Shown: one piece after another, positions 2,973 to 28,149 of the stretch | Numbering within the stretch: position 1 is the stretch's first letter | Layout of the letters: each line of letters begins with the position of its first letter | From: Pelagibius marinus | Lineage (GTDB): Bacteria; Pseudomonadota; Alphaproteobacteria; Kiloniellales; Kiloniellaceae | Direction of reading: 5' to 3' | Assembly: GCF_014925385.1 (NCBI RefSeq) | Contig: NZ_JACSDK010000015.1 | Coordinates: forward strand, 1-64,000 | DNA length: 64,000 nt | Translations under genes and position numbers: made by a program | Notes under the pieces: generated by a model | What the model was told of the DNA's origin: nothing | Database searches by the model: none | Seen by the model: the letters and a program-made list of their open reading frames with translations, nothing else

Positions 2973-3409
2973 TACCTTGCAGCTTATTCGCACGACTCAC
3001 ATGGCGCGTCCGACGTCGCCGGCCCAGGACTCCAGACATACTAAGGTATTCCGCCGGAAGGGAGAGTTGCTCAAACCCGATACGCTATCGAAGGCTGCAT
3101 TAAGCCTGCTCAGTCCCAACAATGCTTTTGATCTCGAGGCCAAGTTCAGCAGGAGTAGTTGATCGGGACGTAGTCTGTCGGACATGCCAACTGTCTAGTT
3201 TCGTAGGTGAGCGCCTATTCTAAACAATGCATTAGGTCGTGTTCTCTCATAAACCTGACGCATGGGAATATGTACATTTTCTGACCGAACTACAGCCAGT
3301 AGATCGCTGGCCCTTCCCTCACCAGCACCCGTGCTACCGCAACTATGGGTGAAAATTAAAGCGCGTGCTGGTATCGAATTGCTGCTGTTTCCAGTATTGT
3401 CGATTCGCT
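2973..3409. other. Intergenic stretch upstream of the STAND NTPase
   Basis: 437 bp with no convincing gene. A 53-codon open frame on the plus strand (3001–3162, starting MARPTSPAQD) has no recognisable similarity and no clear ribosome binding site. The downstream part is AT-richer and probably contains the promoter of the 3410–8014 gene. I could not place a −35/−10 pair with confidence. Confidence 0.35.
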
Positions 3410-6400
3410 ATGTCCTCCTCGACAACAACTCATCTGGCGGCTCTGCGGAAAGCCCTTCTTGCACTCCGACCTACAGGAGATGCGGGATTTGAAGGGATGC
3501 TCGCTTTAGTCTTGTCTGAAGTCTGCGGCCAGCCATTCCGCCTTGCCTCTGGTGGATCGCAACGAGGTCGTGATGGCGATTCTGCATTCGACGATGGTGC
3601 AACTCTTTTTGAGGGAAAGCGCTACGAGAAGTCTGTGCCGAAACGGGAAATCGCTGACAAGCTAATGGATCTAAAGGTCGACAACCAAGGCCAAGTCGAT
3701 CTTTGGGTGATGGGCGCTACGGCCCCAGTTCCAGCTCTAGACGCCAAGGATTTCCGGTCTCTAGCAGAAAATGAAGGCATTGGAATTGTCCTTCTGGACT
3801 GGGCCGATGCGACAACGCTGCCGCCTCTCGCGCTAGCAGTAGCGATGGCGGGGCAGGCGGCAAAGCAATTTCTGCATGATAACCTAGCTAGCTTGGTAAA
3901 TGAGTCCGACTTACAAGCGGCCCTCGACGCGATCGACCTCATAGCAGCACTTCCGAACTTTGGAACGTTCGCAGAAAATCTGCAGGCTGAACTTAGGAAA
4001 CCGTCCACTGGCTTGGGGCTCGCCAAAGCGGCGAGTCACGACTGGCTATGGTCGGTATTTTCGAACCAAAGACTCGCGCGGCAGCATTTTGGTCAGCCTC
4101 TTGCCCCCAGAGATCCAGGTGGCATATGCGATTATCCAAGAGGAAGCTTGATCAAAGAGCTTCAGCCTGCATTCACTGGTTCACCCTCTACCAGTATCTT
4201 TGCGGTCATTGGCACCGAAGGTGCTGGCAAATCATGGTTGGTCGCTGACACGTGGCTTAGCACGACTCCTGCCTCACTTCTGGTTCTAGCGACAGCGGGC
4301 GAGCTTCAAGATCCGGAGGATATACTCGAGCCAGAGAAATTTCTCATTCGAAAGCTAATTCATCAGACGAGTAGCATCTTTGATGAAGCAAGCGAAAAAC
4401 GGTGGCGCCGCCGCTTTGCGGCATGGTGCGCCAATCCCAATCCTGAAAACATCCGCATCACTTTGTGCGTCGATGGCCTCAATCAGTCTCCTAAGTTTCC
4501 ATGGCCGCGCTTTATTGATGCGGCCTCGCTTCTACTGGATAAGCTTGGAGGGCAGCTCGTAGTCACTACGCGCATCACACACTTCCCGACGATACGAAGG
4601 GCAACTGCGCCCGCAATAAAACGTGTGACCGTTCCGGAGTGGACGAAGGCAGAGTTGGAAGAGATCCTTCGAAAGCGCGGCGTCGATCCCGATGTGCTGA
4701 GCGAAGACGTCTTCAGCACGCTAAAGAATCCGCGAATTCTCGGAATCGCTGTCAAATTGCTCGATGCTCGCGAGATCGAAAGGATGGAGGATCTCAGTGT
4801 GGGGCGGCTTCTGTTCGAACATTTAAGGCAGTCCAACGTCACAGGGGCTTCAGTAATTTCTCCGGAGGAGTTCGCGAAAGCCTTGCAGGAAATGGCTGCG
4901 GAGCTTGTGGAGCGTTTAAAATCGCATGACAAAGATGATCTCAGGCTCTTTGATGCGAGGCTCCATGAAAGGCTTTCAGACGTTGCCTCTAGTCTCTTCT
5001 TTAAGCCTGTCGGCGACGACCCTGATCGAAATGAGATTGTAGAAGAAGGGCTGCAAATCGCACTGGGTCTTTGGCTTGTCGAGGCTCTCGAGAAGGAAGA
5101 GCGAAATAATCGCGATCCGTCGGCCCAGCTCGAAGCGATTCTAGAACCCGTTACCCCACTCGATATGACTGCTGAAGTGGTGGCATCCGCAGCCGAGATA
5201 GCGTGTTTGCGCGATCCTTGTCCAGTGTTGGTCGCCGCTAGTCTTATAGGCCACTACGCCAACATGCAAAATGCATCGGAGGTGAGCCTTGCGTCAATTG
5301 GCGCATTGGTGAAAAAAAAGCCGGAGGCTTTCATTCGAGCCGTTAAGGATGCCTCTCTTGCCCAAGAGCATGTTGATCGCTTGGAGTGGCTCACTAGTGT
5401 TATTCTTGCTGCGCGAGATGATGCAAGCGTGCAAGGTGTTCTTTCCCGTGAGTTAGCTGAGTGGCTTTCGTACTACTCTCTTGCACCAGAGCGGATGTTG
5501 GGGGGTGTTCCAGTGAGCGGTTCGGCAGAGCAAATTGAGGCCGAGCGCCAGAAGGCGACAAAGCGGCTCGAAAAAAAAATGGAAAATCTGACTAAGGGGG
5601 AACGCAGCTATATTGAGAAGCACCTAATCCGTCATGACGATGGGGATCTGGATCACCTCCATAGGCAAGCGCTCTTTCTGCTTGCCGGGATGCCCCTGGC
5701 GCCGTTCGCTCCATCTCTGTTCGCGTGGGCCTTCGCAGATGCACTAAATACATCACTTTATGCGCCAAATCAGGAGTTCGGTTGGCTCATTCAGTCTAAT
5801 AATCTTGACTGGGAGGCGACCCGGACAGCCTTGCTTGAAGTCGTGGAGACATTTTCAGTGTCCAGGTCGGAGGTGGGCGATTGGGCAGTAGTAGCCATAC
5901 TCCATGGCACTGGAAATGAAGTCGATGCGGCCAGAGGCCACGAATTGTTCGAGCATCTTACGAGGGACCGAGAGAAGATAGGTTCTTGGCGTTTAGTCGA
6001 AACATACTGTGCGACAGATCCATGCGATCCAGCTGCCGTGCGACCAGAGAATATCGATCAGACTGCAAAGAGATTTCGAGAGATTGACGTGGATAAGTTG
6101 TGTCTCTCGCTGGGGGCATCGACCGAGGATCACTTCTTTCAAGCGGCCATGCCTGGAATGGCCCGCTTTGCGCCAGAGGTTGGGGCAAACACAATACGGC
6201 GTTTTGCAGCACAGACGTTGCAAAGGGAGGGATTACAGCGGAGGCAGGCAGTGTTGAGCCTTCTGCGGCATAGCATTCTTCTGGATAGAGCTACGATAGA
6301 TGCCTTTGTCTTGGCAGCAATATCCTTTAAGGCTGGCGCCTCGGGAGAAAAGAATGAGATCGCGCGCGATGATTGGATTGTATCGCAGTACTCGCTGCTA

Positions 6401-8014
6401 TTTGCACTTCCCCATCTTTCCGGCGATGAGCAGTTTCGCGCGCTGGCCGACAAGAGAACAGGCAATACTCTTCTAAAAATCGTAGCTTCGCTTAAACCGG
6501 CCGATGGCGCGTTGGTCGAATCGCTTTTAGAGCAGGCGGTAGCTGAAGGCAATGATGAAAAGATTGCCCGTATCCTGGCAGCTGTCGAATACACGAATTG
6601 CCTTCTGACACAGCGTGCAAGAGAAATTGTTGTCGAGCTTTTGTGTTCAGAGACTGGCAGCGTTCGGGCGCCGGCACTCGGAATTGCAGCGAGCACTGAG
6701 GACCCAACATTATTGCGGGCTGTTGTTGATAGTGGCTGGGACGCTGGTCGTCTGGTGCCGGAGAGTGATCACTTCGAGGTCTGGTATGGGTCAGCGGCGC
6801 TGGTTGCTGCGGTCGACGTCGGACTAATAGAACTTCCCGACGCACTGGATCGAATGGCATTGAGTCACTATGGGTTTACTGCTGCACGACTTGGCGTTGG
6901 CAGGGCGAACCTGGTAGCAGATAGGATTGAGTTGGCTCTTGCGAAGGTCATGAGGCTGCCAGAGCTTTCCGATTTGCCGGGAATGGAGCGCGATGCTCCG
7001 TCCGGTCCTACTTCGTCGCCACCTCTAGTCGGCGTGCGGGACGAAGCAATGCCGACAGACCCACAAGCAGTTTTTGAAAGAATGGCGGAGTCCGACGAGC
7101 AATTCGAGGAGCGACAGCAGCGCCTTCGTCAAGCGTATAGTCGCTTCAGTAAGGATCTTACCAATGCCGACGCTCGTCTTGTTCTGGAAGATCTGACATT
7201 TGATGGGCTTGAGGTAGTCGTAGCTTCCAGACCAGATGTTGTTGAGCGGTGGTGTTCCTGGCTCTTGTGCGCGGATGACTCAAAGAAGAGAGGCCTCTGC
7301 CGGTTCGCGGTACAGTTTGCAAGCGCTATCGCGAAGGACAATACTAAAGAAGCTATTGAGCTATTTCGTGCCTACGCCAAGGTCGATCCACTCGTGCGGC
7401 ACGTAACCGGGCTAGCAAAGATTCCAGCGGAAATAGAGGCGTTATGGCGCCATGCGGATATTCCTGAAATCGCCGCCGAATGTGTAAATCGGCTTGATCA
7501 AGCCAGTACCGATCGCGAATTGGCCCTCGAGGTCGTGGCTGCATTCCGTGCGGGTCAGGCTGCAATTGTTGAAAGCCATATAAAGAATCTCATTGCTACG
7601 GGGAGGCCAGCATCGATTGCCCGCGGAATTGCAGTCGCGGGCTTCTGCGATCAGTCCGAGTTTGCCGACCAGATATTACTTAGATATAGGACATCTAGCG
7701 GATTCATTGGTGCAGCCCATCGCGCTGCCAGGCGTGCATATGATCGAAATGTGTGGTCACGCCACTGGTGGGAGAAGATGGGGGCCGCAACCGATCGGCT
7801 CGATTTCTGGCGCTACTCAGTTCTTCTAACGAAGATAGTCGATGTGCGATTTGAACTATGGGCAGGTGAGGTGGCGGACGATACGCTACTCAGCACCTTT
7901 TACGTGACCATAGAGGACGGGATAAAGAAACGCATCAAGAGATGGAGCGACAAGCGTCGCGACCAGCTATTTGGCAGAAAGGCACCTCCAAGCATTTTTG
8001 TGTCACGGAGTTGA
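3410..8014 (+). CDS. Avs-like STAND NTPase with N-terminal nuclease domain
   Basis: A 1,534-residue protein. I chose the ATG at 3410 because homology-like sequence begins there; the frame is open 45 bp further upstream. Residues about 20–75 look like an Mrr-type nuclease: GDAGFEGML, then RDGD (Asp55/Asp57), then FEGKRY (Glu68, Lys70), a D…E-x-K site. The NTPase follows: Walker A GTEGAGKS near residue 268 and Walker B ITLCVDG with Asp355, then a helical winged region. The remaining ~1,000 residues are helical and repetitive with no catalytic motif, as expected for a sensor. Nuclease–STAND–helical-repeat order and length match antiviral Avs proteins, where a phage protein bound by the C-terminus triggers oligomerisation and nuclease attack on DNA. 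Target and subtype cannot be read from sequence; closest by architecture to Mrr-type Avs4. Confidence 0.75.
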   Translation: MSSSTTTHLAALRKALLALRPTGDAGFEGMLALVLSEVCGQPFRLASGGSQRGRDGDSAFDDGATLFEGKRYEKSVPKREIADKLMDLKVDNQGQVDLWVMGATAPVPALDAKDFRSLAENEGIGIVLLDWADATTLPPLALAVAMAGQAAKQFLHDNLASLVNESDLQAALDAIDLIAALPNFGTFAENLQAELRKPSTGLGLAKAASHDWLWSVFSNQRLARQHFGQPLAPRDPGGICDYPRGSLIKELQPAFTGSPSTSIFAVIGTEGAGKSWLVADTWLSTTPASLLVLATAGELQDPEDILEPEKFLIRKLIHQTSSIFDEASEKRWRRRFAAWCANPNPENIRITLCVDGLNQSPKFPWPRFIDAASLLLDKLGGQLVVTTRITHFPTIRRATAPAIKRVTVPEWTKAELEEILRKRGVDPDVLSEDVFSTLKNPRILGIAVKLLDAREIERMEDLSVGRLLFEHLRQSNVTGASVISPEEFAKALQEMAAELVERLKSHDKDDLRLFDARLHERLSDVASSLFFKPVGDDPDRNEIVEEGLQIALGLWLVEALEKEERNNRDPSAQLEAILEPVTPLDMTAEVVASAAEIACLRDPCPVLVAASLIGHYANMQNASEVSLASIGALVKKKPEAFIRAVKDASLAQEHVDRLEWLTSVILAARDDASVQGVLSRELAEWLSYYSLAPERMLGGVPVSGSAEQIEAERQKATKRLEKKMENLTKGERSYIEKHLIRHDDGDLDHLHRQALFLLAGMPLAPFAPSLFAWAFADALNTSLYAPNQEFGWLIQSNNLDWEATRTALLEVVETFSVSRSEVGDWAVVAILHGTGNEVDAARGHELFEHLTRDREKIGSWRLVETYCATDPCDPAAVRPENIDQTAKRFREIDVDKLCLSLGASTEDHFFQAAMPGMARFAPEVGANTIRRFAAQTLQREGLQRRQAVLSLLRHSILLDRATIDAFVLAAISFKAGASGEKNEIARDDWIVSQYSLLFALPHLSGDEQFRALADKRTGNTLLKIVASLKPADGALVESLLEQAVAEGNDEKIARILAAVEYTNCLLTQRAREIVVELLCSETGSVRAPALGIAASTEDPTLLRAVVDSGWDAGRLVPESDHFEVWYGSAALVAAVDVGLIELPDALDRMALSHYGFTAARLGVGRANLVADRIELALAKVMRLPELSDLPGMERDAPSGPTSSPPLVGVRDEAMPTDPQAVFERMAESDEQFEERQQRLRQAYSRFSKDLTNADARLVLEDLTFDGLEVVVASRPDVVERWCSWLLCADDSKKRGLCRFAVQFASAIAKDNTKEAIELFRAYAKVDPLVRHVTGLAKIPAEIEALWRHADIPEIAAECVNRLDQASTDRELALEVVAAFRAGQAAIVESHIKNLIATGRPASIARGIAVAGFCDQSEFADQILLRYRTSSGFIGAAHRAARRAYDRNVWSRHWWEKMGAATDRLDFWRYSVLLTKIVDVRFELWAGEVADDTLLSTFYVTIEDGIKKRIKRWSDKRRDQLFGRKAPPSIFVSRS

Positions 8015-8883: not shown

Positions 8884-8959
8884 TGGTCCCCCGGACGGGT
8901 TTCGAACCCGCTTCTCCCGATTACAAGTCGGGCGTCCTTAGCCGATAGACGACCGGGGG
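8884..8959 (-). tRNA. tRNA-Thr (anticodon TGT), unusual
   Basis: On the minus strand the 76 bases fold as a full cloverleaf: acceptor CCCCCGG/CCGGGGG with discriminator A and encoded CCA, D-arm beginning GTCT, anticodon stem CCCGA/TCGGG with loop CTTGTAA (anticodon TGT, reads ACA), and T-arm GCGGG-TTCGAAA-CCCGT. It starts with C1:G72 and has a Glu/Gln-like 'TCGTCTA' D-arm, unlike the chromosomal tRNA-Thr(GGT) at 37,959. Carriage inside a mobile island suggests it is a cargo tRNA rather than a core gene. Whether it is charged with threonine is not provable from sequence. Confidence 0.85.
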
Positions 8960-9053: not shown

Positions 9054-9464
9054 TTGACCGATAGCAATAATGCTATACCTTCTTGGACATTCCGCACCTA
9101 TGCGTCTCGAAGCGGGCGCTGCGAAGTTGAAGAGTGGTACGATTCGCTCACGCCAAAGGCGCAGGCTAAGGTCTTGGTTCGCCTGGAGTATCTGGCACAA
9201 CAGCCGCGGAGCGGTTGGCAACGCCCCCATTTTGCGCCGCTGCATGGAGAATGCAGTGGCCTCTACGAGGTGCGGTGCAAAGTCGAGAAGGTCGAGGTCA
9301 GATTGATCGGCAATTTCGGACCGAACAGACAGGACTTTACGTTGCTGCTCGTTGCTGAAGAACGCGGCGGCAAGTTTCGGCCGCCAAGCAGTTGTTCAAC
9401 AGCACAGGATCGTTGGAAGGAATTGAAAATAGAACCGGAGCGAGCCCATGAGTGGAAACCTTAG
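9054..9464 (+). CDS. RelE/HigB-like toxin (phage Gp49-like)
   Basis: A 136-residue protein of the RelE/HigB superfamily, mRNA interferases that cleave transcripts at the ribosome. Seen: RSGRCEVEEWYDSLTPKAQAKVLVRLEYL (helical hairpin), HFAPLHGECSGLYEVRCK and a VRLIGNF strand, the usual 'gLyElR…RLi' pattern. The start is uncertain: the TTG at 9054 overlaps a possible promoter, and the family core begins near WTFRTY (9081). The 3' end overlaps the antitoxin ATG by 17 bp, a typical coupled arrangement in the toxin-first HigBA order. A TATAGCAA/ATGCTATA repeat around 9026–9078 could be the autoregulatory operator. Confidence 0.75.
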   Translation: MTDSNNAIPSWTFRTYASRSGRCEVEEWYDSLTPKAQAKVLVRLEYLAQQPRSGWQRPHFAPLHGECSGLYEVRCKVEKVEVRLIGNFGPNRQDFTLLLVAEERGGKFRPPSSCSTAQDRWKELKIEPERAHEWKP

Positions 9465-10095
9465 GCAGTCGCTGGTTGAGAAACTGCGCGACAAAGCGTT
9501 TCGGCATGAATACATGGCCGAACACATCAGAACTGGCATCGCCTACCAAATACGCGCGCTACGGGACAAGCGTGGATGGTCGCAGCAGGAGATGGGGCGG
9601 CATCTGAAGAAGCCACAGAGTGTGGTTTCACGTTTGGAAGACCCAGACTATGGGCGCGTTAGTCTTCAGACGCTCATTGAAGTAGCCGACGTATTTGACG
9701 TGGGAGTCTTGGTGCGCTTTGTCGGTTACAGGGAGTTGTTGGAGAGAACCAGTGACCTTTCACCGGCCGCGTTGCTCGCACCAAGCTTTGATGAAGAAGA
9801 AAGTGCGCCTGTTACGTACAAAGCTGTTCAGGGTACTTCGGCGGCATCGGAAGGGGCACGGTCTGGAACAGAGCAATCGACATGGTCCCGCAATACTCTG
9901 TATTCACTGACTCTCGATGACCCAGAACGGCGCAGGCAAGGTCAGGCAACAATTACTCAATCGGAGCGAGAGCGAAACGCTTTGAGTCTGCAGAGAGGCT
10001 CATCCGCAATTCAAACAGATTCCATTGTTGGTTCCGCTAATCGCTTCCCTACGCTCACCCGTGCAGGATACCTTTTGGACCATGCGACTCATTAA
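9448..10095 (+). CDS. XRE-family antitoxin with long C-terminal extension
   Basis: A 215-residue protein. Residues about 30–95 form a helix-turn-helix of the Cro/C1 (XRE) type (ALRDKRGWSQQEMGRHL … SVVSRLED … LQTLIEVADVFDVGVLVRFV), the fold of HigA-like antitoxins. These bind the toxin and repress their own promoter. From about residue 115 there is an unusual ~100-residue polar, low-complexity extension that such antitoxins normally lack. It overlaps the toxin gene upstream by 17 bp and the third gene downstream by 14 bp, so all three are probably translated together. The extension may contact the third protein. Confidence 0.75.
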   Translation: MSGNLRQSLVEKLRDKAFRHEYMAEHIRTGIAYQIRALRDKRGWSQQEMGRHLKKPQSVVSRLEDPDYGRVSLQTLIEVADVFDVGVLVRFVGYRELLERTSDLSPAALLAPSFDEEESAPVTYKAVQGTSAASEGARSGTEQSTWSRNTLYSLTLDDPERRRQGQATITQSERERNALSLQRGSSAIQTDSIVGSANRFPTLTRAGYLLDHATH

Positions 10096-11502: not shown

Positions 11503-12090
11503 ATTTCAGCGGGTCGAGTACGCGAGATTCCATCAAACATGGCTGACGTTGCCCCTACGTTAACGCTGTGAATGCAATCGTAATCCCTGATCGTAGGCGG
11601 GCGCGTCCTCCTTCGTTGCAGGCTACGCATGACTGGGCTCTCGTAAACCGGATCTCTGCATGGCCTTTGGCGATGCAGAGGTCCGGCCGTCCGGCTTCGA
11701 TCCCTCGCGCGTAGATTCTGGCAAGGCCCAATATTGACGGCTGCGCGAGGGCGTCCTCGGTCCCGCTGCGCTCGTTCCTCGCTACGCTCCTGCGGGGCCG
11801 CCAGGAACCTCGCTCCTCCGATCGCCGCTTCCCGCCGCTCAGAGCGCGGCTCCTGGCAGGCTTCTCAGTTTTTTTGGTATGACGGCTTGGCCGCGCTCCT
11901 CGGGCCGAGCCAGGGCCTTTGCAAGGCGAACCACCTTGCGGCGGTAGATGTCGGCAATTTCTGGGTTGAAGTCGGGGGAGTGGGTGGAGCAGGCGAAGCG
12001 GTTCTGGCCGCGAATGGTGTAGATTGTGAAAATTTGGGAAGCTATCCTCCTTCTGTCGTCGGCGACAGCACTCCCTCGAGGTACAGTCTC
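11503..12090. other. Decayed stretch before the SIR2–KAP gene
   Basis: 588 bp without an intact gene. It contains the recombinase remnant described at 11839–12020 and a GC-rich, low-information stretch (about 11,735–11,870). The immediate promoter of the SIR2–KAP gene is probably within 12,020–12,080; a GAGG ribosome binding site lies nine bases before its ATG. No clear −35/−10 was found. Confidence 0.4.
11839..12020 (-). pseudogene. C-terminal fragment of a large serine recombinase
   Basis: The minus-strand frame reads QNRFACSTHSPDFNPEI then ADIYRRKVVRLAKAL and PEERGQA. The 'NPEIADIYRRKV.RL..AL..PE' pattern is typical of the C-terminal helical region of large serine recombinases (resolvase/integrase family). 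The expected end (…RGLI.RIVL) is lost after it, so the fragment is decayed. Together with 15650–15916 on the same strand and in the right order, it looks like one recombinase gene cut by the SIR2–KAP gene. Confidence 0.55.
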
Positions 12091-15000
12091 ATGGCAAGCG
12101 AGCACAGCGATCTCAGAAGCCTAGTCGGACGGACCCACGAAGGCCGCCTCATCCCCGTTCTGGGGTCGGGTGTCGGTGTGGTGGCGGGACTTCCTAGTTC
12201 TCGTGAAATCACACAATTACTTGCCGAGGAGATAGGGATCGCCGACGAAGACCGCGCCATCGATCTTTCGACAGTTTCCGAGATGTTTGTGGCGAGGACC
12301 AGCAAGCAAGCGCTGGAGCGCAGGCTGGCAGAAATATTCTCCGGGCCTCGACGACCCACACCGATTCACCAGCACCTAGCCCGGCTATCGGGCGTTCAGA
12401 TATTCATCTCGACTGGGTACGACGATCTTCTTGAAAGGGCGCTGGACGCGGAAGGCAGACAGTACGAAACCATTAGCTTCCAAGAGAGTGAAGAACTCGA
12501 GGCCGTTTATGTTTCCGTAAAAGGGGAGCGTCATGTCCTGCGCAGGAATGACCCGGAGCTAAGTAAGCTTGAGCCGTTCACGCCTTTGGTGATCAGATTG
12601 TTCGGGGGAGGGGTATCACGATCGTACGAGCCACGCTTCGTCGTGACTGAAAGCGAACTAGTTCATCTGGCGAAGTCGCTGCCCGAGATCATCCCAAGCC
12701 ATGTTCTCGCTCGCATCAGGACATCATCCCTTCTGTTCCTCGGCTTATCGGCGACCGGAATGGCTACTCAGATGACTCTGAGCTCACTGCTCAGAGATCG
12801 CGCGACCTCAAGCCCAACGAGTTGGGCTGTCCTTCCGCTTAGTGATGTGGCGAGCAACGAGGTCTTCACGCGATTCGGGGTGACAGTTATCGAGGGCGAA
12901 TTGTCTAATGTAGTCGACTCTCTATCGCAGCAGGTAGAGTTCTCGAGGGCCTCTGCAGAAAGCCGCCGGCGGGACAGGCAAGCAACAAGTAACAGTGATT
13001 CCACAGAGGAAGAGCCGGAAACACAGTCTGACGTGGACCGCGCACGCCCGATATCAGTTGCGGATGTCGTGGCTGCAGCAGCAGGAATTGACGCGGATAT
13101 TACGACAGATGGCGAAGGCCTACTGGCGGCGGCAGTCGCACTTCTTCCACAGAAGAGGGCGGAGAACGATGTCCTGTCCACTTCCACCCTGTTCCTCGCG
13201 GCAGTCGAATGGGGGCTGGGTCGGGCTGGTGTCCGAGAGCCGCCTAAGCCCCTAGCTAGTCTGGCTCACGCGCTCGTCTCGTCGAGGGAAGGACCTTACG
13301 ACGAACTCCGCACCGAATTCTTTCAGACAAATCCCCCGACTATAAAGCTTGAGATTGGAGGAGAGGAAATTCCATCCTTTGATCTTTCAAGCAACTTCAA
13401 ACAAGCGTATCGAGACGCTGCTGCTGAAGGATCCGTCACCGCGACCGCACTGGTGCGGTCCTTGCTCCGCCACGCTGCGTCTCCTGCTTACACCGGTACC
13501 TGGTTTCGAGATCGGCTTGAGAAACTCGAAGTATCACCGTCCCTACTGGAGATGACTCTTCTTCCCGGCGCCTCCACCCATGCAGCTAGCGATCTGTGGA
13601 CCGTCGATGACAAGCTCGGCTATGCTGAATACGCAAGAGCTATCTTCCATTTCTTGAGGGATCCGCGGACGCATCCACCGCTAACTATCTCAATTCAAGC
13701 GCCATGGGGCGGCGGCAAGACCTCGCTGATGCGGATGATTCAGCGCGAGTTGGATCCTGTAGGCTATGCGCGTGCCCAACCCAGCTCGCTACCAGCGAGC
13801 GCGCCTGCAAAAGGCGCCTCAGCGGAGACGCTCCTTGATGAGCTCCGGGAAATGGCGAATGGTAGGGCCAGTGAGATACGGATGAACTTGGGCGAGGGAG
13901 GCACATTTCCGACTATCTGGTTTAACGCGTGGACCTACCAGAGCGGCAACCAGTTCTGGGCTGGTCTTGGGGAGGCGATCGTTCGTGGGCTGACCATGCG
14001 GCTTGATCCTGTCCAGCGTGAGAAGTTCCTCTTGCGACTGCACCTCGCTCGCGTTGATCCGCATGCCATTCGTCGAAAGGTCTACGCGGCAGCAGCTCAG
14101 CACTTCCTCAATTTCCTGCGTAGTGGCCTCAAGTGGGTGTTAGCCATCGTCGTACTTCTTACGGCGGCTATAATTGCCGGTATTGGTTTAGCATACGATC
14201 TTAGTCAGGAGCTCCTCGGCTGGACCGTCTCGGGTTCGGCACTCGCTGGTTTGGGAACCGCTCTTGTGGGGTATGCCAGAGCACTGTTCAAGGCCAAAGC
14301 CGAGCCGGCGCAGTTCAGCCTTTCCGACTTCCTTGACATTCCCAACTATTCGGGTGAGCAAGGCTTTGTACATCAAGTGAACGATGACCTACGCCGAATC
14401 TTAGACATCCTACCCTTTGTCGAGGGGGCCGATGGTGAGCCTCTCCGCGTCCCCATCGTGCTGTTCATCGATGACCTGGATCGATGCTCACCAGTTAAAG
14501 TCGCCGAGGTTTTTGAGGCGATAAATCTCTTCATCGCAGGCGAGTTCCCGAATTGCTACGTTGTTCTAGGCATGGACTCAGAGATTGTGGCCGCAGCTTT
14601 GGAGGAGGCCCACAAGGAGGTTGTTGCTCGCCTGCCGGCCTATAGTCGGCAGACGGCGGTAGGCTGGCGTTATATGGACAAATTCGTCCAATTGCCGTTT
14701 GTTATTCCTCCGATCGATCCGGAAGCCGTCAAACTCTATGCGGTCCACCTGGCCGCCCGAGAGAACTTGGCAGCGAACCAGGCCCAAGTCCGAGCAGCGG
14801 CACTCGATCGTCGAAGTCTTGAGGACTCGATTGCCGAAATTCAGCACGAGGTCGAGGAGGATGAGCAAGTCGCACAGCGACTCGCAGAGAAGCATGGGCT
14901 CGAGGGCCAAGTTGGCGAGGCCCTGGCTCGAGAGATCATGGAACGGGACCAGCGGCTGGAGTTCATCGACGCGCGTGCGGAACTTTTGAGCCAGGACAGC

Positions 15001-15510
15001 AGTGAGATTGAGGCATTGCTGCAACAGGCCCATGCTGAGTTCTCCAATAACCCGAGAGAGCTCAAACGCTTAGTAAACGTGTATCGGTTCTACATGAATC
15101 TACGCTTGGCGCGCGAGTCGCGTGGCCAATCAATCCCGACCATTGAGCAGACTCGAAATTGGGTAATGATGATGCTGGCTTGGCCGGAGTTCTATCGATG
15201 GATTCGGCGCAGCCATACGGAATGGGAAGCTGAAGCAAGTGACTTGGAGGCTGCAGAGACCGGGCGACTTCTTAAAGAGTTGGAAGATCTGGCCATCAAG
15301 CCAATCGAAAAGTTGAACGGGACGAACGAGAAGTCAGAGATGGTTGAGCCAACTTTGGAGGACTGGACGAGCGGGCTAGAAAGCCGAAGCGGTCTTTCCA
15401 AGGAGACCCCTTGGTTATCGGACGAACGCCTCTTCCGCTTCTTTCAGCGTGTCGCGAATGCGGGACACGAGGCCTCGTTGGCGGCAGGAGCAGGAAAGGG
15501 CTTCTGGTAG
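12091..15510 (+). CDS. SIR2-like–KAP P-loop NTPase fusion, candidate defence protein
   Basis: A 1,139-residue protein (ATG at 12091, GAGG ribosome site). Residues about 18–290 are SIR2-like: LIPVLGSGVG..AGLPS (25–36), FISTGYDDLLERAL (~105–118) and VIRLFGGGV…VVTESEL (~168–190). Active SIR2 NADases have Asn in 'TNYD' and His in 'LHG'; here they are Gly109 and Phe171, so NAD hydrolysis is doubtful. A helical Clp-N-like region (~330–500) follows. Then a KAP NTPase: Walker A APWGGGKTS (537–545), two membrane helices (~680–735) inside the domain, Walker B VLFIDDLDRC (Asp794), then a coiled coil (~910–960). KAP NTPases are membrane-bound and include the phage-exclusion protein PifA. I infer a single-gene antiphage system with membrane action; no described system with exactly this architecture comes to mind. 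Confidence 0.8.
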   Translation: MASEHSDLRSLVGRTHEGRLIPVLGSGVGVVAGLPSSREITQLLAEEIGIADEDRAIDLSTVSEMFVARTSKQALERRLAEIFSGPRRPTPIHQHLARLSGVQIFISTGYDDLLERALDAEGRQYETISFQESEELEAVYVSVKGERHVLRRNDPELSKLEPFTPLVIRLFGGGVSRSYEPRFVVTESELVHLAKSLPEIIPSHVLARIRTSSLLFLGLSATGMATQMTLSSLLRDRATSSPTSWAVLPLSDVASNEVFTRFGVTVIEGELSNVVDSLSQQVEFSRASAESRRRDRQATSNSDSTEEEPETQSDVDRARPISVADVVAAAAGIDADITTDGEGLLAAAVALLPQKRAENDVLSTSTLFLAAVEWGLGRAGVREPPKPLASLAHALVSSREGPYDELRTEFFQTNPPTIKLEIGGEEIPSFDLSSNFKQAYRDAAAEGSVTATALVRSLLRHAASPAYTGTWFRDRLEKLEVSPSLLEMTLLPGASTHAASDLWTVDDKLGYAEYARAIFHFLRDPRTHPPLTISIQAPWGGGKTSLMRMIQRELDPVGYARAQPSSLPASAPAKGASAETLLDELREMANGRASEIRMNLGEGGTFPTIWFNAWTYQSGNQFWAGLGEAIVRGLTMRLDPVQREKFLLRLHLARVDPHAIRRKVYAAAAQHFLNFLRSGLKWVLAIVVLLTAAIIAGIGLAYDLSQELLGWTVSGSALAGLGTALVGYARALFKAKAEPAQFSLSDFLDIPNYSGEQGFVHQVNDDLRRILDILPFVEGADGEPLRVPIVLFIDDLDRCSPVKVAEVFEAINLFIAGEFPNCYVVLGMDSEIVAAALEEAHKEVVARLPAYSRQTAVGWRYMDKFVQLPFVIPPIDPEAVKLYAVHLAARENLAANQAQVRAAALDRRSLEDSIAEIQHEVEEDEQVAQRLAEKHGLEGQVGEALAREIMERDQRLEFIDARAELLSQDSSEIEALLQQAHAEFSNNPRELKRLVNVYRFYMNLRLARESRGQSIPTIEQTRNWVMMMLAWPEFYRWIRRSHTEWEAEASDLEAAETGRLLKELEDLAIKPIEKLNGTNEKSEMVEPTLEDWTSGLESRSGLSKETPWLSDERLFRFFQRVANAGHEASLAAGAGKGFW

Positions 15511-17542: not shown

Positions 17543-18493
17543 CTAGCGTTTGCCGGCGTTGCGGGCGAGCTTGGCGAGATGCTTCTTGCAAGCGGCTTCG
17601 ACCAGCTTGTGAAGTCGCTGCGTGCACTCTCCGAGCCAAAGCAAGGCCTCCCGCTCGATCTTGTAGTGCTTTGAGTAGCGCGCTTTCACGTAGGCCTCGA
17701 CGAGCAGATTGAACCAGGCGCGGTGAGCGGCCAGCTCGCGCGGCCAGGCCTCCACAAGGCTTCGGTCTTGGTCTTCGGCGAGCGATCGCAGGAACTTGAT
17801 GTTGTGCGCTGGCGGCGTGTAGTTGGTTAGCGTCAGAAGCAGCCCCGTATAGGCATTCTCAACCGCCTGATGCAACAAGAAGGCAGGTTGCTTTGTCCGG
17901 CCTTTGTCTAGCAAATAGCGTGCGGTATCGAGGAAATCCTCTGCTGTTGGGATCCGATCCTCGAAGTGCTCCTTGGCGGTCTCATACGCCTCCCTAGGCG
18001 AGCACGGCTGGGGATCGGTGAGCGGCTCGTCATCCAGCTCGTAGAGGACGACGCCCTCCTTGCGGATGTCGGTGAAGAAATACTGCCCTTTGCGGATGGC
18101 CTCGTTCACCTCCCGCCGGCTGTGCACGATGAAGCTGACCGGGGTCTTGATAGCGCGGTCGTGCATGAAGCGGTCGCTGGCCTTGTGCCAGTAGGGCTCG
18201 AACTCGGCCAGCTTCTTGTTGTTGACGATGATCAGCAGATCGAAGTCGGAGCGGTAGCCCTTGGTGGTGTGGGGCTCGTCTACCCAGGAGCCCCGGGCAT
18301 AGGACCCGAAGAGGATGACCTTGAGGATGCGCCCGCGCTTCTTCCAGTCGGCGCTGGAGCCCTTGAGGGCGTCCTCGAACTCCTCGTGCAGGATCTCCAG
18401 CGCCCGCTCCAGTTCGCGCTGCTTCTTCGGCGGCAGGTGATCCAGGCTGAACTTCATCTTCGGGAGGGGGGCCGGGTTATCGGGAGGAGCCAA
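17543..18493 (-). CDS. MNT-type nucleotidyltransferase fused to HEPN domain
   Basis: A 316-residue fusion. Residues about 20–150 are a minimal nucleotidyltransferase: VILFGSYARGS (Gly63–Ser64) and SDFDLLIIV with Asp83 and Asp85. Residues about 165–300 form a HEPN helical bundle (AKEHFEDRIPTAEDFLDTARYLLD, AAFLLHQAVENAYTGLLL-like, YVKARYSKHYKI). In two-gene MNT/HEPN toxin–antitoxins, the MNT adenylylates and silences the HEPN RNase; here both are in one chain, and the 'RY..(H/Y)' end resembles the sacsin-type HEPN rather than the classic R-x4-6-H RNase motif. Start is a TTG at 18493 with AAGG upstream; MKFSLDH at 18457 is an alternative. It lies upstream of the TIR-like gene. Confidence 0.8.
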   Translation of the reverse strand: MAPPDNPAPLPKMKFSLDHLPPKKQRELERALEILHEEFEDALKGSSADWKKRGRILKVILFGSYARGSWVDEPHTTKGYRSDFDLLIIVNNKKLAEFEPYWHKASDRFMHDRAIKTPVSFIVHSRREVNEAIRKGQYFFTDIRKEGVVLYELDDEPLTDPQPCSPREAYETAKEHFEDRIPTAEDFLDTARYLLDKGRTKQPAFLLHQAVENAYTGLLLTLTNYTPPAHNIKFLRSLAEDQDRSLVEAWPRELAAHRAWFNLLVEAYVKARYSKHYKIEREALLWLGECTQRLHKLVEAACKKHLAKLARNAGKR

Positions 18494-20034: not shown

Positions 20035-21789
20035 ATGCGCATCCGACACATCGAAATCAAAAATTTTCGCGGCATCCAATCCCTCTGCTGGGCTCCAGGG
20101 CAGAGTATGAATTGTTTGATTGGACCGGGCGACTCAACGAAAACGACGGTGCTTGATGCTATCGAGCTCGCCTTAAATCCGCGCAGTTACTTCCTTGGCG
20201 ATGACGCCGACTTCCACAATCTCGATGTGGAACAGCCCGTCAAAATCACGCTTACAATGGGTGATCTTCCGGTCGAATTCCTCGCGGAAAACAAATACGG
20301 GCTTCACCTGCGCGGCTGGGATGCGGCTGCGGAACAATTGCACGACGAACCGGACGGCACGCTTGAAGAAGTGCTCTCGCTCAGGGTCACGATCGATAAA
20401 TCACTCGAGGCCCGGTGGTCGCTTTTCAATGAGCGCATCGCGCAGGCCGAAGGCGATCCACCGATGATCCGCTACAAGGACATGCAGACGCTTGCCACAT
20501 CGCGGCTCGGCCCCTATGCAAAACGCCATCTGGGCTGGGGTCGCCAATCCGTCTTAAGCCAGATCGAAGAGTCCGGTGAAAGCGTCAATCTCAGGCTGGC
20601 GGAGGCCGGCCGCGCGGCGCGCTCGGCATTCAAGGAGAGCGGCACGGACGTATTCAGCGCGACGGTCGAAAAGGTGCAAAAGCTCAGCGCTGATTTTTCC
20701 GTTCCGGTGAGAGACAAGTACAAGGCTGAACTCGACGTACAATCCGTCAGCGTCAGTACTGGCGGCATCGCGTTGCACGACGGCGCGCTGCCGCTGCGCC
20801 GGCTGGGAACCGGCTCCTCACGGCTCCTGGTGTCTGCCCTCCAGCACGAAGCCGCGAGCAGCTCCCACGTTGCGCTGATCGACGAAGTTGAACACGGGCT
20901 CGAGCCTCACCGCATCGCAAGGCTTCTCAAATTTCTGAAGGGCAAGAAGACGACGCCCTCCGGCGACGTGCGCTCACAGATATTCCTGACCACCCATTCC
21001 CCGGTGGTCGTTCGTGAACTTGATGCTGGCGATATTTTCACCGTCCGCGAGACGGGCGGCGATGTAGGCGTGCGCTCCGCCGCTTCGACCCCGGAGAACG
21101 CAAAGAAAATCCAGGCCCATCTGCGCGTCTCTCCTGAAGCCTTTCTCGCAAGACGCGTGCTTGTCGGCGAAGGGCGGACAGAAGCAGGTTTGCTCCGCGG
21201 GCTTGATAGCTGGTGGACTGATAACGGCAAGCCGTCATGCGCTTATCAGGGCGCGGTTATCATTCACGGCGACGGCAAAGATTCGGGTCCCGATATCGCT
21301 GAGTCTCTGCTTGACCTCGGCTATCAAGCCGCCTTGCTGCTCGATTCGGACGAAGCCCCAAATCCGCAAACTCTTGACCGTGTGCGCTCCAAAGGCGGCA
21401 AGATCGTCCAATGGGAAGGAGACGTTTCCACCGAGGGCCGGTTGTTTGCCGATCTCAAATGGGAAGCCGTGCGCGAGGTCATGGACTACCTCACCAGCGA
21501 ACTCGGTGAAGACGCGATCCGCGCCCACATCAACAACGTTCTGGCCGAATCGCAATCTCCACCTCTTGGCGATCTCACCTTTCCGGCAGCACTGGACACC
21601 AAGGCTTTCCGGCAAACGCTCGCGGCAGCCGCTGTCGCCAAGAAAGGACAAAAGCGCGCCTCGTGGATTAAAGACTTGGGACGCGCCGAAGCCATCGGGT
21701 ACATGATTGGCGCCGACCTCGGCGCGACCGCCGGCACACCATTTGCCGCCGGCATAACCAAGCTCCGGCAGTGGATCGATGGCGGATGA
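20035..21789 (+). CDS. gajA: Gabija GajA, OLD-family ATP-dependent endonuclease
   Basis: A 584-residue protein, close to the ~578 residues of the Bacillus GajA. The N-terminal ABC/SMC-type ATPase is clear: MRIRHIEIKNFRGIQ, a P-loop variant GPGDSTKTT (~residues 30–38, Thr where the second Gly is usual), signature-like RRLGTGSSRLL, Walker B VALIDEVEHGL and TTHSPVV. The Toprim nuclease follows: LVGEGRTEAGLL with the catalytic Glu near 380, and LLLDSDEAPN as the DxD. GajA nicks/cleaves DNA when nucleotide pools fall during phage infection. The gene overlaps gajB by 11 bp, the standard Gabija layout. Confidence 0.92.
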   Translation: MRIRHIEIKNFRGIQSLCWAPGQSMNCLIGPGDSTKTTVLDAIELALNPRSYFLGDDADFHNLDVEQPVKITLTMGDLPVEFLAENKYGLHLRGWDAAAEQLHDEPDGTLEEVLSLRVTIDKSLEARWSLFNERIAQAEGDPPMIRYKDMQTLATSRLGPYAKRHLGWGRQSVLSQIEESGESVNLRLAEAGRAARSAFKESGTDVFSATVEKVQKLSADFSVPVRDKYKAELDVQSVSVSTGGIALHDGALPLRRLGTGSSRLLVSALQHEAASSSHVALIDEVEHGLEPHRIARLLKFLKGKKTTPSGDVRSQIFLTTHSPVVVRELDAGDIFTVRETGGDVGVRSAASTPENAKKIQAHLRVSPEAFLARRVLVGEGRTEAGLLRGLDSWWTDNGKPSCAYQGAVIIHGDGKDSGPDIAESLLDLGYQAALLLDSDEAPNPQTLDRVRSKGGKIVQWEGDVSTEGRLFADLKWEAVREVMDYLTSELGEDAIRAHINNVLAESQSPPLGDLTFPAALDTKAFRQTLAAAAVAKKGQKRASWIKDLGRAEAIGYMIGADLGATAGTPFAAGITKLRQWIDGG

Positions 21790-23254
21790 CATAGATGAAG
21801 AGGCCGCCAAGATTGCCGCGAGCATCGAACGCGGCAGTATCGTCGCTGCCGCCGGCTGCGGCAAAACCGAGCAGATCGCCCGAGCGACGCAGGCATCGAC
21901 AGGCTGTCGCCTTATCCTGACCCATACCCACGCTGGCGTCGATGCGCTCAGAGCTCGACTGAAGAAGCGAAAGGTGCCGGAGGCCAAATATCGGATCGAT
22001 ACGATTGCCGGATGGGCGCTCCGGTTCGCCGCTTCCTATCCGCAGCGCTCTGCCATTCCGGTTGCCGAGCCGTCGGGCAAAGAATGGAACGGTATTTACC
22101 AGAGCGCGGCGGCACTCGTGCGCAGCGGCGCCGTTTCGCGCGTGCTCAAAGCCTCATATGACGGGCTCTTTGTTGATGAATACCAGGACTGCACGGCGGA
22201 CCAGCACGAGATCATTTGCGCGCTCGCGTCTCATTTCCCGACCTGCGTCTTTGGCGATCATTTACAGGCGATCTTCGATTTCAAAGGCCAGAAGCCTGTC
22301 GAGTGGGACAAGGACGTTTTCCCGGCTTTTCCAAAATGCCATGAACTCACCACGCCCTGGCGCTGGAAGAACGCGGGAAACGAGGGTATGGCCGGCTGGC
22401 TGAAAGGCGTCCGTACTGTTCTGGACAACGGCGCCAACTTGGATTTTTCCAACACAACCCCTTGCGTGCACTGGTTCCAGATACCGCCTCCTTCCAAATC
22501 CAATCCGATTCAGGCGCAGCGCCGGCAGATCATCACCGAGGCGTTCCGCGGCATCGAATTGGACAGCGATGAAAATCTCGTGATTATGGCCGACAGCGCG
22601 AATCCGAAATCACGCGCATCACTTGCAAAGCATTTTTCCAAGTGGGGCTGTTCCAATATCGAGGCGATCGACTGTCCGGACCTTTTTAAGGCTGCCGCTG
22701 GCCTTGAGGGTTGCGCCGGCATGGCACGGCTCGAAGCCGTGCTCGAATTTGCGGCGACCTGCATGACAGGCGTGGAGAAGGCGCCGCTTCTCAGTTCGGT
22801 CAACTCGCACCTAGCAGGCGGAAAAGCCGGGGCAAAGAAGTTTGCCGATCTCATTCCACTATGTGTTGAAATCACGCGGGCGGGCGGCTACCACCTTGTT
22901 CTCGCCTTGCTCACCGCGTTGCACGGACGGGCGCAGACCCGCGCATACCGCCGTGAGATGTTCTATTCCATGTGCACCGCGCTCAGGCTCATGGGCACAG
23001 GGCAACTTGCGAGCCTGACGGATGCGGTATGGCAGGCCCAGAATCGGACCAGGCATCGCGGCCGAGTTCTTGGCACGCGAAATGTCGGCAGCACACTTCT
23101 TGTGAAGGGTCTTGAATTTGACCACGCCCTGGTTATTGACGCGCAAGGCCTTGACCGAAAGCACCTGTACGTCGCACTGACCCGGCCAGTTCGTTCGCTC
23201 ACGATTCTCTCTTCTTCGCCGCAGTTTGCACCCAAGCGTTCTAAGAGTTCTTGA
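21779..23254 (+). CDS. gajB: Gabija GajB, UvrD-like helicase
   Basis: A 491-residue superfamily-1 helicase, matching the ~494 residues of the reference GajB. Motif I is AAAGCGKTEQI (~residues 20–30), motif II GLFVDEYQDC (~125–134), motif III-like CVFGDHLQAIF, motif IV/VI region near the end with LVKGLEFDHALVIDAQG and YVALTRPVRSLTIL. In Gabija, GajB associates with a GajA tetramer and senses DNA ends or unwound DNA, adding to nucleotide depletion and DNA damage. ATG at 21779 lies within gajA. No third gene is required for this system. Confidence 0.92.
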   Translation: MADDIDEEAAKIAASIERGSIVAAAGCGKTEQIARATQASTGCRLILTHTHAGVDALRARLKKRKVPEAKYRIDTIAGWALRFAASYPQRSAIPVAEPSGKEWNGIYQSAAALVRSGAVSRVLKASYDGLFVDEYQDCTADQHEIICALASHFPTCVFGDHLQAIFDFKGQKPVEWDKDVFPAFPKCHELTTPWRWKNAGNEGMAGWLKGVRTVLDNGANLDFSNTTPCVHWFQIPPPSKSNPIQAQRRQIITEAFRGIELDSDENLVIMADSANPKSRASLAKHFSKWGCSNIEAIDCPDLFKAAAGLEGCAGMARLEAVLEFAATCMTGVEKAPLLSSVNSHLAGGKAGAKKFADLIPLCVEITRAGGYHLVLALLTALHGRAQTRAYRREMFYSMCTALRLMGTGQLASLTDAVWQAQNRTRHRGRVLGTRNVGSTLLVKGLEFDHALVIDAQGLDRKHLYVALTRPVRSLTILSSSPQFAPKRSKSS

Positions 23255-26357: not shown

Positions 26358-26458
26358 ATTCTCCGCACTCCTTGCGGAGAATATGCCCTCCTTTCTCCGC
26401 ATCGGTCAAGGCTATTCTCCGCATGATATGCGGAGAAAACCAGGGTCAATCTCCGCAT
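26352..26458 (-). promoter_or_regulatory. Palindromic operators over the Fic promoter and start codon
   Basis: Five copies of TCTCCGCA (or its complement). One is a perfect 16-bp stem, GGGCATATTCTCCGCA at 26352–26367 with its complement at 26373–26388 and a 5-base loop; it includes the Fic start codon (26355–26357). Another is TTCTCCGCAT / ATGCGGAGAA at 26415–26424 and 26428–26437. Single half-sites lie at about 26,392 and 26,449. Likely binding sites for the winged-helix domain of the Fic protein, giving negative autoregulation. Confidence 0.75.
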
Positions 26459-26673: not shown

Positions 26674-26919
26674 ATGCCAATGTCCATCGCAAGACGAAAC
26701 AGCGACCTGCCGCCGTCGCTTGCGCCGCGAGGTCTGTCAAAAACTCAAGCGGCGGCCTACGTAGGCGTATCGGCTAGCAAGTTCGATCAGATGGTGTCTG
26801 ACGGGCGGATGCCAAGGCCACTGCGCTACATCGGCCATCCGCGATGGGACCTCAGGATGATTGACGAAGCCTTCGATCGACTGTCGGATAGGATGAGTAG
26901 AAACCCTCATGACGACTGA
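26674..26919 (+). CDS. AlpA-like excisionase/regulator
   Basis: An 81-residue protein (ATG at 26674; a second ATG at 26680). Residues about 17–65 form a MerR/AlpA-type winged helix (RGLSKTQAAAYVGVSASKFDQMVSDGRMPRPLRY). Proteins of this type act as recombination directionality factors or as activators of a neighbouring integrase. It overlaps the integrase start by 11 bp, so the two are translated together and are probably the excision/integration module of this island. Confidence 0.8.
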   Translation: MPMSIARRNSDLPPSLAPRGLSKTQAAAYVGVSASKFDQMVSDGRMPRPLRYIGHPRWDLRMIDEAFDRLSDRMSRNPHDD

Positions 26920-28051
26920 GCCGATGAAGCTTCCCCCTTATGTGACCCGCACGCGCTCGCGCCACGGCAAGCTGTGCCTTTATGTTCGTCGACGAACCGG
27001 AAGGTGGATTCGGCTTAAGGCTTCGCCGGGAACCCCGGAGTTCATAAGCGAGTATTTGGCGGCTCTGAAGGAGTTGGGCTTGCCGCCTGACGGCGAGCCC
27101 CGAGAAGTCGACACGCCCCTTTCGGGCACGCTTCGTGACCTCTGCCAGGAATACTACCGAAGCCCGGAATTCAAGCGGCTCTCCAAGTCGACCCGCCACG
27201 TCCGCCAGCTCATCCTGGAACGGCTGTGCAAGCGCACGGACCAGAAGGGCATTGAAACAGGCGACAAAGGCGCCGGCTACATCGAGCGCCGACACGTGCG
27301 GATGTGGCGCGACGAGATGTCAGACCGCCCGGAAGCCGCCAACGGCATGGTCAAAGCGCTGCGCCAGGTATTCAAGTGGGCCGTCGACACCGAGCGGACC
27401 GAAGACAACCCCGCTCGCGATGTCCCCTACCTCTCCAGCAACAACCCCGATGGTTTTCACACCTGGTCGGTCGAGGAAATTCAGCAGTTCCAGGAGCGCC
27501 ACCCCGTGGGAACCAAAGCCCGCTTGGCGCTGGATCTGTTCCTCTACACCGGCGTGCGCCGCTCCGACGCTGTGAGGCTGGGCCCACAGATGGAGCGGGG
27601 CAACGAGCTGCACTTCACCGAGGCAAAGGGCCGCAGCCTCAAGGTCAAGGCCCGTGTCGTGCCGATCCTCCCGCCACTGCGCCAATCGATCGAGGCCACC
27701 CCCTCCGGGCACCTGTCTTATCTGGTCACGGAGTTTGGCAAGCCCTTCACGTCCAACGGTCTGGGAAACTGGTTTCGCAAACGCTGCAATGAAGCCGGTC
27801 TGCCCCACTGCTCCGCCCACGGGCTCCGCAAAGCAGGGGCCACCATCGCAGCGGAGAATGGCGCCACCGAGCATCAGCTAATGGCCATTTACGGCTGGGA
27901 AAGCCCGAAGCAGGCGGCCCTGTACACGCGTAAAGCAGACCGAAAGCGGCTGGCCGGCGCATCAATGCATTTGCTGATGACAGACCAGAATGAGAACAGT
28001 TGTGTTGCACCTCACATCCAAGGTGCAACACGCGCCGAGAAAAAGAAATAA
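26909..28051 (+). CDS. Tyrosine-type site-specific integrase
   Basis: A 380-residue phage-type tyrosine recombinase. The N-terminal part is an Arm-binding domain (RTRSRHGKLCLYVRRRTGRW), the middle a SAM-like core-binding region, and the C-terminal catalytic domain has all the expected residues: LYTGVRRSDAVRL (first Arg), Lys in TEAKGRSLKVK, HGLRKAGA (His-x-x-Arg), GWESPKQAALYTRK (His/Trp position and the nucleophile Tyr). It ends 22 bp before the 3' end of tRNA-Phe, pointing toward it, which identifies that tRNA as the likely attachment site. It seems intact. Confidence 0.92.
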   Translation: MTTEPMKLPPYVTRTRSRHGKLCLYVRRRTGRWIRLKASPGTPEFISEYLAALKELGLPPDGEPREVDTPLSGTLRDLCQEYYRSPEFKRLSKSTRHVRQLILERLCKRTDQKGIETGDKGAGYIERRHVRMWRDEMSDRPEAANGMVKALRQVFKWAVDTERTEDNPARDVPYLSSNNPDGFHTWSVEEIQQFQERHPVGTKARLALDLFLYTGVRRSDAVRLGPQMERGNELHFTEAKGRSLKVKARVVPILPPLRQSIEATPSGHLSYLVTEFGKPFTSNGLGNWFRKRCNEAGLPHCSAHGLRKAGATIAAENGATEHQLMAIYGWESPKQAALYTRKADRKRLAGASMHLLMTDQNENSCVAPHIQGATRAEKKK

Positions 28052-28073: not shown

Positions 28074-28149
28074 TGGTGCCCAGGGGCGGAATCGAACCAC
28101 CGACACCATGATTTTCAGTCATGTGCTCTACCAACTGAGCTACCTGGGC
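28074..28149 (-). tRNA. tRNA-Phe (anticodon GAA), island attachment site
   Basis: On the minus strand, acceptor GCCCAGG/CCTGGGC with encoded CCA, standard D-arm GCTC…GAGC, anticodon stem CATGA/TCATG with loop CTGAAAA (anticodon GAA), and T-arm GGTGGTTCGATTCCGCC. The 3' end faces the integrase, and the island lies on that side. The 3' half normally serves as attB for such integrases and is preserved on integration. I did not see a second copy in the window, so the left junction lies to the left of position 1. Confidence 0.95.

Follow-up and report, generated by a model that had tools for sequence, protein, structure and literature searches.

We analysed a 64-kb stretch of Pelagibius marinus DNA (64,000 nucleotides, hereafter the window), which forms the start of a 368-kb contig. 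In the ORF listing of the window, the forward-strand frame 3365–8014 is open throughout. Homologs begin at the same Met, encoded at position 3410, and we hence assign the protein 1,534 residues from this start, the intact length that had been claimed from the sequence at first pass. The homologs are near-equal in length (1,512–1,554 residues) at identities of 21–43%, therefore the reading frame is real, far beyond what chance would give. The genome holds a single copy of the gene, and a search for a promoter-like site near it found none. The gene and its predicted parts are as follows.

3410..8014, + strand: whole gene for a nuclease–STAND NTPase–sensor protein of 1,534 residues (open frame, start Met shared with homologs, single copy)
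3410..3829, + strand: N-terminal Mrr/PD-(D/E)XK-like nuclease head, residues 1–140 (Mrr_cat in relatives, fold order of the model, conserved motif columns)
3560..3574, + strand: putative catalytic motif, part 1, Q51-x-G53-x-D55 (20/20 Mrr-headed rows, 18/18 rows of the head alignment)
3611..3619, + strand: putative catalytic motif, part 2, E68-x-K70 (E in 20/20 rows; K in 19/20, Arg in one)
3830..4006, + strand: variable helical linker, residues 141–199 (lowest conservation of five segments, helices in the model)
4007..5269, + strand: NACHT/STAND NTPase with helical and winged-helix-like arms, residues 200–620 (NLRC4 Z 17.4, NACHT in 6/16 members, Avs2 NTPase 98.4% by hhalign)
4211..4234, + strand: Walker A, G268TEGAGKS275 (G268, G273 and K274 in 22/22 rows)
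4472..4483, + strand: Walker B, D355-G-L-N358 (D355, G356 and N358 in 22/22 rows)
4571..4573, + strand: R388, putative sensor-1-like arginine (22/22 rows, role inferred)
5270..8011, + strand: C-terminal helical-solenoid sensor, residues 621–1534 (all-helical model, HEAT/karyopherin-like matches, a single family across distant members)

The first-pass annotation had proposed a nuclease head, a central NTPase and a helical sensor. Conserved motifs, Pfam matches within the family and structure models agree with this three-part layout. The window protein itself matched no Pfam family at E ≤ 0.1, and the scan of 16 family members returned 22 families in total at E ≤ 1.

Conservation of the head was counted on the 22-row family alignment minus one trypsin-headed row and one row without the N-terminus, i.e., on 20 Mrr-headed rows. 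E28, Q51, G53, D55 and E68 are kept in all 20 and K70 in 19, with Arg in the one remaining relative. These six columns are also invariant in a separate 18-row head alignment, where D57 varies. Because D55 is kept in every Mrr-headed row and D57 is variable, D55 is the predicted catalytic aspartate. Of the triad initially named, Glu68 and Lys70 are hence supported by conservation together with the head itself, but Asp57 was the wrong choice. Pfam Mrr_cat matched three of the 16 family members (E ≤ 1, best 3.5e-4), the window protein not among them. The predicted head shows the α–β order of the restriction-endonuclease fold, with the loop that bears D55 (residues 52–59) modelled at pLDDT below 50. 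When the head profile was compared with sequences of solved structures, the best matches, an ancestral caspase (E 0.17) and AspBHI (0.89), were at chance level and included no convincing nuclease. We assign the head to the Mrr-type PD-(D/E)XK nucleases on the basis of a D...E-x-K motif within a predicted restriction-endonuclease fold, whose catalytic loop is modelled at low confidence. Motif, Mrr_cat matches in relatives and fold order together argue against the absence of a nuclease fold from residues 1–120. The linker that follows has a mean pair identity of 0.28, the lowest among the five segments.

For the NTPase, the Walker A/B assignment made at first pass held: the motif residues are present in all 22 rows. 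Pfam NACHT matched six of the 16 family members (E ≤ 1, best 1.7e-6), again without the window protein among them. Residues 1–620 were modelled at pLDDT 85 and pTM 0.83, and residues 199–620 of this model superposed on NLRC4 with Z 17.4 and an rmsd of 5.6 over 357 aligned residues. In a Foldseek search with residues 1–620, Avs4 (8dgf_A) was the second-best PDB match (E 6.3e-7, 595 columns across head and NTPase). The VIA alignment with Avs4 (8dgf_B) covers residues 8–620 only loosely (Z 12.6, rmsd 15.7, 457 residues), and eukaryotic NACHT proteins outranked it. Profile comparison with hhalign against four Avs2 relatives gave 98.4% (E 6.9e-15), restricted to the NTPase; the corresponding value against an Avs4-like set was weaker (89.7%, E 1.9e-6). 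The module is thus classed, from its motifs and its model, as a STAND NTPase of the NACHT kind, with Walker A and B, a conserved arginine and a predicted NACHT fold with helical arms. By sequence profile it is detectably homologous to the NTPase of Avs2 and, more weakly, to those of Avs4-like proteins.

The sensor was modelled as part of residues 380–1534, which form an all-helical solenoid (pLDDT 83.6, pTM 0.75). Its predicted helical nature agrees with the initial proposal, at a size of roughly 900 residues. The model resembles HEAT solenoids of the karyopherin, Pds5 and CAND type (Foldseek E 3.3e-5, best VIA Z 8.8), and these matches may reflect only a common shape. Pfam sequence scanning assigned no housekeeping family to the sensor, and the model gave only such generic HEAT-solenoid shapes. 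Avs4 was not among the matches listed by Foldseek and VIA for the sensor model, although an Avs4 likeness may exist; the structural comparison suggested at first pass yielded HEAT-like shapes. The full-length profile, compared with sequences of solved structures, returned only chance-level names.

Sensor profiles were also compared directly. Against the sensors of four relatives found by the Avs2 profile the scores were 0.1% and 0.2%, and against the Avs4-like set 0.2%, this set comprising four proteins or fragments of which three are only distantly Avs4-like. The positive control compared close with distant sensors within the family, and these matched at 99.8% (E 2.7e-28, 822 columns) in spite of 20% identity. 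We conclude from this control that the sensor is one coherent family without detectable kinship to the Avs2 sensor. Against both sets the scores support the early impression of an unfamiliar sensor, less firmly so for Avs4 proper, because the Avs4 set is mostly distant.

The family is rare. It was found in one of 98 genomes (the Pelagibius genome only), in two of 385 genomes of the class and in four of 398 genomes of the phylum, the own genome counted each time. A plasmid search gave 13 records, six of them covering at least 80% of the query, and scanning genome contigs with a profile of four aligned members gave 14 loci. These lie in Stappia (43% identity), followed by Betaproteobacteria, Bradyrhizobium, Bacteroidales, Deltaproteobacteria and Desulfobacteraceae, with Erythrobacter, Brevundimonas, Manganitrophus, Methylobacter and others as further hosts. 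Among viral contigs, 84 pattern matches contained no relative, and phage records contained none. In the 22-row tree phyla are intermixed, and the window protein pairs with that of Stappia (support 100/100). Rare and sporadic spread together with mixed phyla is the pattern of a gene moving between lineages. Two loci hold altered copies: a transposase-like ORF (L021:12093-13451) breaks the Methylobacter relative into two, and a free-standing protein of 354 residues (L008:7761-8825) matches only the last ~267 sensor residues and is either a remnant or a sensor fragment that exists on its own.

The gene lies in a region of low GC content. Bases 1–28,000 have 53–62% GC, and the sequence beyond has mostly 62–72%, except for a 57% block at 38–40 kb. 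The following features were found in this region and at its edge.

9054–10095: Gp49-like toxin gene (just below the Pfam cut-off), then a gene for an HTH protein
11734–15510: SIR2-like domain joined to a KAP P-loop NTPase, 1,258 residues (PADLOC QatA/PifA- and ThsA-like matches)
17543–18493: HEPN plus nucleotidyltransferase (HEPN-MNT) protein (Pfam)
20035–23254: GajA/GajB, a Gabija pair (PADLOC 5.6e-201 and 5.7e-163)
25251–26402: Fic protein, towards the integrase side of the island (PADLOC SoFic 1.7e-43)
26909..28051, + strand: phage-type integrase, right-hand boundary of the low-GC island (Pfam Phage_integrase 4.6e-13, GC step at 28 kb)
28074..28149, − strand: tRNA-Phe, candidate integration site (tRNA call, GC step)

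Genes for DUF559 and DUF4238 proteins also lie within the island. The tRNA-Phe gene is the probable integration site. No direct repeats of it were found in the window, which would have marked a second, left attachment site, and the genome holds only one copy; the left site may lie off the contig. The SIR2–KAP protein is possibly a further defence fusion of the same island, and the Gp49-like and HTH genes are likely a toxin–antitoxin pair. A tRNA-Thr gene (anticodon TGT, 8884–8959) lies in the low-GC island just past the main gene. The 383-residue ORF upstream of the main gene (1821–2972) had no convincing family match in PADLOC or Pfam. From these gene assignments, the neighbourhood of the gene is classed as a defence island.

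An obligatory partner gene was considered and rejected: when 15 neighbour ORFs of the window were compared with the homolog loci, only the HEPN-MNT gene was closely matched, by a 50% identical copy at L017:1889-2860 near the Erythrobacter relative, besides a weak match of the GajB helicase in L006. We therefore treat the gene as stand-alone. The neighbours of relatives include SAVED and XamI restriction–modification genes, Hachiman HamA and RloB and, by PADLOC, CBASS, a type III methylase and MkoA. For PADLOC, nine proteins from seven loci had been chosen by eye from among many ORFs, and eight of the nine matched, which is not to be read as a rate. A second giant STAND protein adjoins three relatives in no fixed orientation (L007:2475-7682, L010:14877-20225 and L022:1796-7024); all three matched PDC-M54A, and those of L007 and L010 also Avs4.

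One relative carries a different head. The protein of locus L020 has the NTPase and sensor of the family at 25% identity, and its first ~200 residues differ. Two further loci, one on a chromosome of E. coli and the other on a plasmid of Vibrio, encode proteins with which this head shares 37% and 29% identity. In both of these loci, an MBL-type gene lies upstream and DEAD/DEAH helicase genes lie downstream of the protease-type protein. By analogy with Tuck et al. (PMC12799240) and from gene order, they may be read as a HamM/protease-HamA/HamB layout. H36, D81 and S155, the last within G-x-S-G-S, are invariant in the three heads. The L020 head was not recognised as a trypsin by Pfam, and its matches to HtrA proteases were at chance level (E 0.37); both results count against the protease reading. 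PADLOC gave no match for the E. coli protease-fusion protein. Directly upstream of the L020 gene lies an MBL nuclease gene (PADLOC LmuA 3.3e-61, Avs1a 1.4e-36), whose product is 48% identical to that of the E. coli locus. Tuck et al. show that, in both Hachiman and AVAST, such nucleases are proenzymes that become active DNases once a protease has opened them.

In the tree, L020 sits within a nine-row clade that is otherwise Mrr-headed (support 100/99). The simplest reading of the sequences is therefore that L020 exchanged its nuclease head for a trypsin-like protease paired with an MBL pro-nuclease, although its branch is long. A chassis that apparently bears two unrelated DNA-destroying heads is the strongest indirect argument that the head of the window protein is an effector. 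The nuclease–protease pair is confined to L020; at the window locus, no MBL gene occurs among the neighbours scanned. The L020 record is labelled Streptomyces cinereus, its GC content drops within the locus, from 45% to 29%, and with such values (29–45%) it is probably a contaminant or a mislabelled contig. An MBL protein (L018:120-1262, LmuA 1.3e-10) is also encoded divergently from the Brevundimonas relative, which keeps its nuclease head.

We propose, with a probability of about 0.77, that the window protein is a single-gene, Avs-like antiviral STAND sensor with an Mrr-type nuclease effector and an abortive outcome. At rest, the helical solenoid would keep the NACHT-type NTPase closed. On meeting a sign of infection, in the simplest case a phage protein, it would allow the NTPase to bind ATP and oligomerize. 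The oligomer would bring the Mrr-type nuclease heads together, DNA would be cut, host DNA included, and the cell would be killed or halted in growth before phage release. Ligand binding, oligomerization, DNA cleavage and abortive outcome are here inferred by analogy; trigger binding, NTP-driven oligomerization, nuclease activation and cell death are taken from STAND systems in print (PMC12931631 and PMC12169576).

We favour a sensor that detects a phage protein directly. The main rival, which we regard as unlikely, is that the solenoid responds to a change that infection brings about in the host, e.g., via a chaperone, and then frees the nuclease. This would resemble bNACHT25, which senses through DnaJ and shares with bNACHT32 a DNase–NACHT–helical layout (PMC12169576). 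The assignment of NACHT to family members by Pfam and NLRC4 as the best structural match would fit such indirect sensing, but the NTPase is clearly related to that of Avs2. Moreover, neither NCH1 nor another bNACHT C-terminal domain was among the 22 Pfam families of the 16 members, in a library that may be without such models.

It is quite improbable that the sensor is aimed at plasmids or other incoming DNA instead of lytic phages. Several relatives are plasmid-borne, none was found in viral contigs or phage records and a nuclease effector would fit either target, but defence genes are commonly carried on plasmids. The STAND systems described in PMC12931631 and PMC12799240 answer to phage proteins, which also speaks for a phage trigger. 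We give still less credence to a non-immune STAND protein, for example a regulator, in which the head would be structural or inactive. Transcription regulators do exist among STAND NTPases, but conservation of the nuclease motif in 20/20 Mrr-headed rows save one K-to-R exchange, the sporadic spread and the defence neighbours argue against such a role here, as does the relative whose head was apparently replaced by a protease paired with a pro-nuclease.

If the antiviral reading is right, the family would add a new detector to bacterial NLR-like immunity, with a trigger that is directly testable since one gene should suffice. The natural exchange of heads on a shared chassis would also offer a clean system to ask whether NTPase oligomerization alone fires unrelated effectors.

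How does the window protein relate to known systems? In PADLOC, where the search against Avs profiles was run, it matched no family at E ≤ 10; among the 16 family members only one touched Avs2, at 0.029, and none matched Avs4. With no Avs profile matching and the Avs2 sensor comparison failing, we do not assign it to a known Avs type. "Avs-like", as the first-pass annotation called it, hence holds for the proposed way of working and not for membership. Avs2, represented by the relatives L033, L034, L035 and L037 found by PADLOC PDLC02164, is also about 1,500 residues long, with a GFExL...GxDxG...(E/Q)xK-type head and a homologous STAND NTPase with a D-G/A-L-N-Q/E Walker B. Its head compares with that of the window family at 34% by profile, which is only suggestive, and its sensor is without detectable homology although distant sensors of the own family match. 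The portal-bound Avs4 structure (PDB 8dgf) is similar along head and NTPase, and the Avs4-like giant STANDs beside three relatives are similar in the NTPase and not detectably in the sensor; the sensor model of the window protein instead resembles HEAT/karyopherin solenoids. Likeness to the eukaryotic NACHT proteins NLRC4 and NLRP3 lies in the predicted fold of the NTPase module. These have a CARD or PYD head and a leucine-rich-repeat sensor, in contrast to the nuclease head and HEAT-like sensor predicted here.

The bacterial NLR-related proteins bNACHT25 and bNACHT32 (clade 6) likewise combine a PD-(D/E)XK DNase head, NACHT and a helical C-terminus (PMC12169576); judged by description, they may differ in the C-terminal domains named above. 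HamMAB of Hachiman, AVAST and Lamassu, as nuclease–protease pairs (PMC12799240), share the MBL gene and protease head with L020, whereas the window protein bears its own nuclease head. It also does not show the arrangement of Avs type 1, with an MBL nuclease upstream of a trypsin-like head. In the literature searched we saw no description of the family; the founding Avs and bNACHT papers could contain one. Our best reading is a new family of Avs-like sensors, each encoded by a single gene and acting by abortive infection. We see about an even chance that it is an undescribed Avs-like type. Its HEAT-like solenoid would then recognize something other than the triggers known so far (terminase, portal, Ksap1, JADA), and the chassis would take interchangeable killing heads: most members carry a fused Mrr nuclease, whereas one apparently carries a protease paired with a pro-nuclease that is encoded separately.
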